Shown here one piece after another: positions 1 to 2,416 of a stretch of DNA of 64,000 nt. The notes under the pieces are model-generated. The model worked only from the letters and a program-made list of their open reading frames with translations. It was not told the DNA's origin and did not search any database. The stretch's first letter is position 1, and each line of letters starts with the position of its first letter. A program made the translations under genes and the position numbers. Origin of the DNA: Actinomycetes bacterium (GTDB lineage Bacteria > Actinomycetota > Thermoleophilia > RBG-16-64-13); NCBI GenBank assembly GCA_024637035.1, contig JAGXFW010000012.1:1-64000 (forward strand), given 5' to 3'.

Positions 1-1007
1 ACTTTGCTGTCGCCCTAACCACCCGCTACCCAGCAGGGCAGATAGTAGAAGTCGCTCATCTCGGCTACGGAGGCGGAGATCATGGCGAGTTCAGGCGCGC
101 CCACCGGAGCTGTGGCGTACGTCATGTCGAAGGTGGTGGTGGAGCTGCCGTAGATGACGGGGGCGCCGACGGCGGTGGCTTGGGAGAGGACGATGGACGC
201 CAACACCTCGGCGTTGTGCGTCACCAGCGTGCCGGACATGCTTATGGGACTCGACGCTCCCGCCATGGCCATAGACACCATGTTGACCGCGATGCCGTGC
301 TTCGCGCCCCCCATGATCGCGTCGACCGCGCCCGTGTGGAGCTGCAGGGGGCTCGTGGGACAGATGGTGAGGGAGAAGAGCGGGCGCTCCCGCAGCTTGT
401 CCCGTCCTCCGGCCACCGCGGCACCCATCTCCACCAGCATCTCCACGTGTTCCGCGTTGTTCGCGCTCAGGTGGATGTGCTTGGTCGTGTTGCGGAAGCT
501 GGTGTCGAGCACGTAGATGTCGTGGGCGTGATCCGGCGCGTCGTTCGGCGCGAGGGCGCGCTCGTACGTGTCCATCATGTCCATGGCGTCGCAGAGCCGG
601 GCGCTGTCCGCCAGGTCTTGCAGGGTCGAGTCGCGCAGCTGGCCGGTCTCGTGGTCTACTACCTTGGTGCCCTCGCCGAAGTTGGTGTAGCCGACCACGC
701 GGCCGCCCATGAGGAAGTCGTGTTCCCCGTCGCGGGACGCGAGTAGGATCTTGCCGGGAGCCGACTCGATGGCGTCTTCGACCACGGAACGGGGGAAGCG
801 GACGGCGCCGGTCGCCCGGTCCACCGTGCATCCCGCCTGGTCGAGGACGTCGTGGGCCTCGTCGCCCGCGACTTTGACTCCCACCTCTTCCAGTATCTCC
901 AGGGTGGCCTCGTGGATGGCTTCTCGTCCGTGTTGACCGAGCATCTCGAAGCGTAGGTTCGGTACTCCGCCGGGGTCGTCGGTACGGGCCTTGGTCCTGA
1001 AGCTCAT
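1..1007 (-). CDS. mttB: Trimethylamine:corrinoid methyltransferase, MttB family, with in-frame amber codon (putative pyrrolysine) at 15-17; 3' end beyond window
   Basis: 330 aa ORF with MttB-family sequence (LRFEMLGQHGREAIHEATLEILEEVGVKV...STTTFDMTYATAPVGAPELAMISASVAEMSDFYYLPCWVAGG). Terminating triplet is TAG (15-17 = cta on +). Frame stays open beyond it as G-D-S-K to the window edge. Start overlaps mtbB TGA (ATGA). Confidence 0.9.
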
Positions 1008-2416
1008 GATCTACGCTCCTGGGCGCGTCGCCGGACCCGGTCGACGCAGTTGACCGGGATATCGAGCACCTCGGAGATACGCTCCTTGGCCTCCATGCCC
1101 TTCGGGTCGCCGGGGATCCCGAGGACCACCCCGAACCCGAGCTCCTCACGCAGCTCGCGCATGACCGCGGTGTCCGACAGGTCGTGCGTGCTGACTTTCA
1201 ACTTGTCCGCCACATACGTTTTGGCTTCCGAGATCCGCATCTTGCGTGTGAACTGCATACGAGCGACCAGATCTCCGGCCGTCCTCATGCCGCCCATCCC
1301 GGATACCACGCTGTGAGCGATCGGCATCCCAAAGGGGTCGCCTACGCCCAGCTATAACCCGTCGACCCGGGCTATCTCGACCATCGCCACGGAGGCGCGG
1401 CTCACTGCGTCGAGCGAAGGCGTGTCGAGCACGGGGATGCCCCCCACACCCATCCCCACGTTGGCGTGTACGGGGATGTTCGACGTCTCCACACAGGCTT
1501 TCACGAAGCACACCGCGCGGGCGAGGTTCCACGGCATCGAGCGGCGCGTGTTCGTGTTGACCACAGGGCCGAAGACATCGACGCCGGCCGCCTCCGCCAT
1601 GCGCACCTGATCGTTCGGGTACATGCCGGCCAGACGTTCGCCCTTGTAGGTGACGCTGCCGTGCATGCCGAGCACGAACTCCGAGGCCATGCCCATCTCG
1701 ATAGCGAGGTGGGGCACCTTGGACTTGAGCTCCTCGGCCGCTTTCAGGGCCGCCATGAAGTCGGCGTCGCCGGAGGCGCCCGAGGTGTCGAGGTTCATGA
1801 TGTCGAGGCCGGAGTCGGCCAGACGAGTGCCGACGAAGACGACGTCCCTCTGGGCATGGACGGCCGCCTCTTCCTGTGCCGCCAGCGCTTCCTTGATGCG
1901 CCCGGCGGGCAGGAGGTCGGCCGGGTTCCCGTATGGGCCGTCGGGGGCGAAATAGAGCCCGAGGTTGGTCATGGCCCCGTACATGAGGGGGTGCGTCGTG
2001 GCGACGAGCGCATTCTCCACGTAGGCTTGTTCCTGGGCGACGATCGGCTTGACGACCTTGTAGGAGTAGTCGATGTGGCCGAGCTCGATGGTGTCCTGGC
2101 CGAAGGCCCGCTCGTGCAATTGCAGCTCTTGGATGCGTCCGATCGCGAGGGCGAGGCCGCAGCTGCCCGCGTCGGCGTTGATGCGGTGGTCGCCGCCGTC
2201 CTGCGTGGAGATGACCTGGTTCCCCATCTGCACACCTACCACGCCGGCTTGATCGACGAAGAGGTCGACGAGGCGGTCGATCTCGTTGTCGTCGAGCGTC
2301 GGGATGTGCCCACGGTCGGCGGCGTCAGCCGCGCCTTCGATCAAATCACGTCGGATCTCATCCGCGGTCATGGCGATGAAACGGCCGTCGCCCGAACGTA
2401 CTTTGTAGGTCGACAT
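1004..2416 (-). CDS. mtbB: Dimethylamine:corrinoid methyltransferase MtbB with in-frame amber codon (putative pyrrolysine) at 1352-1354
   Basis: ORFs 1352..2416 and 1004..1327 are one frame joined by TAG (1352-1354 = cta). N-part has MtbB hallmarks (ERAFGQDTIELGHIDYSYKVVKP, GMGVGGIPVLDTPSLDAVSRASVAMVEIARVDG). Post-TAG frame reads LGVGDPFGMPIAHSVVSGMGGMRTAGDLVARMQF...VMRELREELGFGVV, matching the MtbB C-terminus. About 470 aa in total. Confidence 0.95.

Follow-up and report, generated by a model that had tools for sequence, protein, structure and literature searches.

An in-frame UAG at the pyrrolysine position of mtbB in an actinobacterium in which pylD was not detected

Introduction

Pyrrolysine (Pyl) synthesis by PylB, PylC and PylD is held to be a complete, self-contained route, and the three enzymes are described as travelling together. 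The pylTSBCD genes form a self-contained cassette in which PylD oxidises the amine (PMC11467909), and a complete PylB, PylC and PylD set has been reported, with about 21% UAG stops corresponding to Pyl-encoding bacteria (PMC9723677). In cassettes of the Desulfitobacterium hafniense type, the synthetase is split into PylSn and PylSc (PMC11467909). Here we analyze mtbB, a gene for a dimethylamine--corrinoid protein methyltransferase with an in-frame TAG codon, which lies in the first 64,000 nucleotides of contig JAGXFW010000012.1 (the window) from an actinobacterial genome (assembly GCA_024637035.1).

As in the D. hafniense type, the pylT, pylSn, pylSc, pylB and pylC genes of this genome are clustered by methylamine methyltransferase genes, but pylD was not detectable after pylC or elsewhere. 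The actinobacterial cassettes of Thermoleophilia bacterium FR_37 (JAOSKU010000001), SKS1.bin6 (JAJZQZ010000034) and Soudan_30 (JADQBG010000024) share with it the family, the pylT-Sn-Sc-B-C order and neighboring methyltransferase genes, whereas all three carry pylD directly 3′ of pylC. What sets the system apart from known Pyl cassettes is that tests for PylD, one of the enzymes that define them, did not detect it. A search of the open-licence literature found no papers on Pyl in Thermoleophilia or Actinomycetota, or on a missing pylD.

Results

The mtbB gene occupies positions 1004..2416 on the minus strand and comprises 470 codons when the UAG is read through. Its upstream part is an open reading frame (ORF) of 354 amino acids with an ATG start (1352..2416), the ORF at 1004..1327 lies in the same frame, and the sole interruption is the TAG at 1352..1354, codon 355. 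Past this TAG the frame stays open for 115 codons up to a TGA at 1004-1006, giving a product of 470 residues. The original prediction had joined the two ORFs across codon 355, and its coordinates and residue count were right. It had also named the gene mtbB and placed the UAG at the Pyl position, and both assignments hold: the Dimeth_Pyl family (PF09505) matches residues 3-463 of 470 (model positions 2-462 of 463) with 666 bits, spanning the TAG, while the TIGR02368 score is 529 bits (cut-off 369). In mtbB homologues of relatives, the TAG is kept at codon 350-356. The Rfam model PYLIS_2 matches 100 bases beginning at the TAG (1255..1354, minus strand; 87 bits, gathering score 36), a match that may largely reflect conserved coding sequence.

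The gene resembles the MtbB (PF09505/TIGR02368) genes of Methanosarcina and Pyl-using bacteria in length, full-length family match, one UAG at around residue 355 with a GDP-GMPIAH-type stretch after it, the PYLIS_2 match and the adjoining mttB. It differs from known MtbB systems in its actinobacterial host and in being one of four diverged mtbB copies in the genome. It thus belongs to a known kind of gene, and its host is a bacterium, not a methanogen like those whose MtbB served the original prediction as reference.

We then compared the sequence on either side of the TAG in codon alignments with paralogues and homologues. Nonsynonymous (dN) and synonymous (dS) divergence had similar values on the two sides of the TAG; against the mtbB copy in the pyl cluster (contig C33), for example, dN was 0.32 and dS 0.90 on the 5′ side, and 0.30 and 1.12 on the 3′ side. 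No second lesion was seen. The readthrough frame is real and more than a product of chance, and the like divergence on both sides bears out the earlier view of a genetic-code expansion gene rather than a truncated pseudogene.

The source genome (G000; Actinomycetota, 34 contigs totalling 3.57 Mb, 100% complete, contamination 1.6) contains nine TAG-bearing Pyl-type methyltransferase genes: four mtbB, four mttB and one mtmB. Each of the four mtbB copies and the sole Pyl-type mtmB has a single TAG within its family match, and the other mtbB copies are 55-62% identical to that of the window. All four Pyl-type mttB genes have their TAG at an identical alignment column, the Pyl column, whereas the 11 non-Pyl MttB homologues reaching that column all lack a TAG there (a further fragment does not extend to the column). 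An MttB homologue on contig C32 was excluded from the count of Pyl genes, its TAG lying off the Pyl column.

The pyl genes are located elsewhere in the genome. In order, the cluster on C33 consists of mtmB, an amino-acid-permease-like gene, mtbB, a UroD-like methyltransferase gene, pylT with a CUA anticodon, pylSn, pylSc, pylB, pylC, a sodium:solute-symporter-like gene, mttC and mttB. All four proteins exceeded the curated cut-offs, with 101 bits for PylSn (TIGR03912), 292 for PylSc (TIGR02367), 445 for PylB (TIGR03910) and 331 for PylC (TIGR03909). The original prediction had proposed searching the genome for pylT, pylS, pylB, pylC and pylD, and had held that a complete genome without pylT and pylS, or conservation lost after the TAG, would speak against it. 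The first four genes were all found, pylS in its split form, and conservation continues past the TAG.

The closest named relative is the Actinomycetota metagenome-assembled genome OS_PC_MetaG.mb.176 (G006), a member of the same genus with a 91% identical PylB; further members of the host family include FR_37. Between G000 and G006, dN/dS was 0.15 (pylB), 0.20 (pylC), 0.26 (pylSc) and 0.18 (pylSn frame). The pylT genes were identical, and the Pyl TAGs were conserved. The pyl pathway of this genus is under purifying selection and is not decaying. The continued selection on pylB and pylC once pylD was lost implies that what they make is still in use. A decaying system, with mtbB reduced to a pseudogene that ends at the TAG and a Pyl pathway dying out after pylD loss, would fit the missing pylD and the roughly one-third of genes that use UAG as an ordinary stop. 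We regard it as extremely improbable, given the purifying selection on the pyl genes and on the mtbB sequence 3′ of the TAG, and the lack of a second lesion. By a rough estimate, 12 of the 38 window genes (~32%) end in UAG once the two Pyl codons are removed, which is above the ~21% tied to Pyl-encoding bacteria (PMC9723677). Across all sampled stretches, which partly overlap and are biased to methyltransferase loci, the count was 44 of 100 genes. With UAG this common as an ordinary stop, strong suppression would lengthen many proteins.

The remaining gene of the pathway, pylD, was not found. With TIGR03911 we compared the five Pyl-using genomes of the family, G000, G006, G007, G009 and G016. 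The last three, which belong to other genera, encode a pylD that adjoins pylC and scores 201-222 bits. G000 gave no match: the best E values in G000 and G006 were 0.0017 and 3.8e-4 and covered only a short Rossmann stretch. With a profile of 24 PylD sequences (A2), the score was 329 bits in G009 but no higher than 29 bits in G000 or G006. A profile of the nearest PylD subclade (A4) scored 314 bits in G007 and 281 bits in G016 and had no match in G000 or G006. The PylD-specific N-terminal domain, PylD_N (PF21455), was likewise not found in G000 or G006. Thus, the models used recovered pylD from the positive controls G007, G009 and G016, and a divergent pylD in G000 or G006 was rejected as a candidate, the four profiles yielding only generic Rossmann stretches of ≤29 bits. 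The interpretation of mtbB stands despite this result.

Gene order agrees with the profile searches. In G016, pylC is followed by pylD and then a transporter gene, whereas in G000 the equivalent transporter gene comes directly after pylC. The gene 3′ of pylC is sodium:solute-symporter-like in G000, and in G006 it is an ORF resembling a multi-pass transporter (by eye, EamA-like); neither is pylD-like. In a survey of 160 loci, pylC and pylD were on one stretch in 113 and no more than 500 bases apart in 104. The pylC loci with adequate downstream sequence and no pylD there include L173 (closely resembling G006), L174 (from a contig of 262 kb) and L175; these share a PylB subclade with the pylD-positive G009 and G007. 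We rejected the possibility that one common gene replaces pylD at such loci: G000 and G006 differ, and pylC is followed by mttC in L174 and L175. The extra genes shared by L174, L236 and L239 are ABC transporter ATPases only. A Syntrophaceticus-like locus and two archaeal loci, exceptions of the survey, have no further pyl genes nearby. PylB-PylC-like genes occur at archaeal loci of Methanosarcinales B74_G9 (L113) and Methanomicrobia JdFR-19 (L123), where neither PylD nor PylS was found within about 7 kb downstream. A first metagenome scan using PylC alone gave no result.

The main rival to a replacement enzyme is that pylD lies outside the operon, on DNA that is in neither of the two assemblies or bins (a repeat-flanked gap, a plasmid or a mobile element), in an otherwise ordinary Pyl system. 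Unassembled DNA does exist in G000, because the window contig (C28) and contig C30 each break within an mttB gene and the two copies are closely similar: the window's mttB is truncated just past its Pyl codon, C30 begins at the same place in another copy, and the assembly probably broke at these paralogues. Moreover, the database holds PylD proteins of the same subclade whose hosts are not identified, some of them on short contigs. We nevertheless consider this rival unlikely, though it deserves serious weight, as pylD was found in neither genome of the genus (100% and 99% complete), two further metagenome lineages (L174 and L175) have pylC without pylD next to it, and the plasmid and viral collections searched contained no related pylD.

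Next, we asked whether PylC or the synthetase differs in the pylD-less group. An altered PylC was dismissed, since its striking D-to-H change also occurs in the pylD-positive G009 and is not tied to pylD loss. Few PylSc positions distinguish the pylD-less group, and we recognized none of them as a Pyl-pocket residue. These comparisons bear on the possibility that UAG specifies another amino acid, derived from the PylB/PylC product with no part played by PylD (e.g., the PylC product, or one with a ring made differently) and functional in the methyltransferases. The maintenance of pylB, pylC and pylS without PylD would fit such a residue, but the PylSc pocket shows no evident change in the pylD-less group. 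It also counts against another residue that the Pyl imine has been proposed as the group with which these methyltransferases bind their substrate, and that the Pyl synthetase recognizes the ring. We judge this alternative improbable.

No replacement for PylD was identified. One candidate, a D-2-hydroxyacid-dehydrogenase-like protein, is encoded at C30:8521-9396, flanked by an mtbB gene and one for an MttB homologue, and G000 has a second copy at 17672-18541 on C30. Among 18 genomes of the order, close relatives of the first protein occur in G000 and G006 only, with none in the three Pyl users that have pylD; its operon position is conserved, the protein is very rare (seven proteins with E ≤1e-30 among scored candidates from 5.8 billion), and PylD itself has a related NAD domain. 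That it substitutes for PylD nonetheless has very little probability in our view. The G006 copy at this position is short by about 50 residues (244 amino acids), the second G000 copy adjoins a thiamin-enzyme-like gene, and the protein appears by eye to have the Arg/Glu/His of true 2-hydroxyacid dehydrogenases. Its co-occurrence with pylD loss is confined to a single clade and therefore counts as one event.

Immediately downstream of mtbB, the window begins with mttB, a trimethylamine methyltransferase gene of which only the N-terminal 335 codons are present (1..1007, minus strand), cut by the contig start. Its TAG at 15..17 (minus strand; codon 331, context VAGG-O-GDSK) lies at the Pyl position of MttB in PDB 7xcm and 7xcl, which the sequence matches with an E value of 7e-76; this Pyl codon is an addition to the original prediction, which named mtbB alone. 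TIGR02369 scores 444 bits over positions 2-318 of 469, below its cut-off of 525 because the contig ends inside the gene. The mttB start and mtbB stop overlap in an ATGA (1004..1007, minus strand), and this arrangement makes translational coupling of the two genes likely.

Three further loci are recorded here. An MtmB homologue (L031; C3:1638-2990; 33% identity) has no TAG, carries Trp at or beside the Pyl column, and adjoins genes for a non-Pyl MttB and a corrinoid protein. The mtbB at C33:453.8-455.3 kb (L026) ends at a TAG (codon 467), and a few codons further on its frame leads into the UroD-like methyltransferase gene, so that UAG readthrough would yield an MtbB-methyltransferase fusion; this TAG stop and continuing frame are conserved in both members of the genus (L089 in G006). 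Beside the pyl cluster, C33:437.0-443.8 kb (L025) contains two aldehyde:ferredoxin oxidoreductase genes with ferredoxin-like partners, one of the oxidoreductases being 91% identical in G006.

Discussion

The analysis shows how the genes are built, their homology, the selection acting before and after the UAG, the presence of pylT, pylSn, pylSc, pylB and pylC, and that pylD was not detected in two near-complete genomes of the genus; from these results we infer readthrough, Pyl as the inserted residue and a replacement for PylD. The UAG of mtbB is very probably decoded as Pyl in a working MtbB. In the mechanism we propose, mtbB and the overlapping mttB would encode corrinoid-dependent methylamine methyltransferases, and their UAG would be read by tRNA-Pyl(CUA), charged by the split PylSn/PylSc synthetase and encoded in the pylT-pylSn-pylSc-pylB-pylC cluster, placing Pyl in the methyltransferase active site. 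PylB would supply 3-methylornithine, which PylC would couple to lysine. With PylD missing, the terminal amine would be oxidised by an oxidoreductase or aminotransferase not homologous to PylD, whereupon the pyrroline ring would close. With less confidence than the decoding itself, we favor such an unrelated enzyme as the maker of the pyrroline ring.

Several points weigh against this interpretation. Both readthrough and the identity of the residue are deduced from sequence, the absence of pylD is based on two genomes, both draft assemblies, and with the window contig ending inside mttB, part of the DNA of G000 is missing. In addition, the same-subclade PylD proteins in the database have no known host, and there is no good replacement candidate, the genus-specific dehydrogenase by mtbB being shortened in G006 and resembling a true 2-hydroxyacid dehydrogenase.

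This analysis documents Pyl genes in actinobacteria, and standard gene callers would divide each methyltransferase gene of this kind there. If the absence of PylD is true, nine UAG-containing genes and a selected pylT-Sn-Sc-B-C set without it would mean either a second route to the ring or a different residue. Either outcome is testable and would be useful for genetic code expansion.
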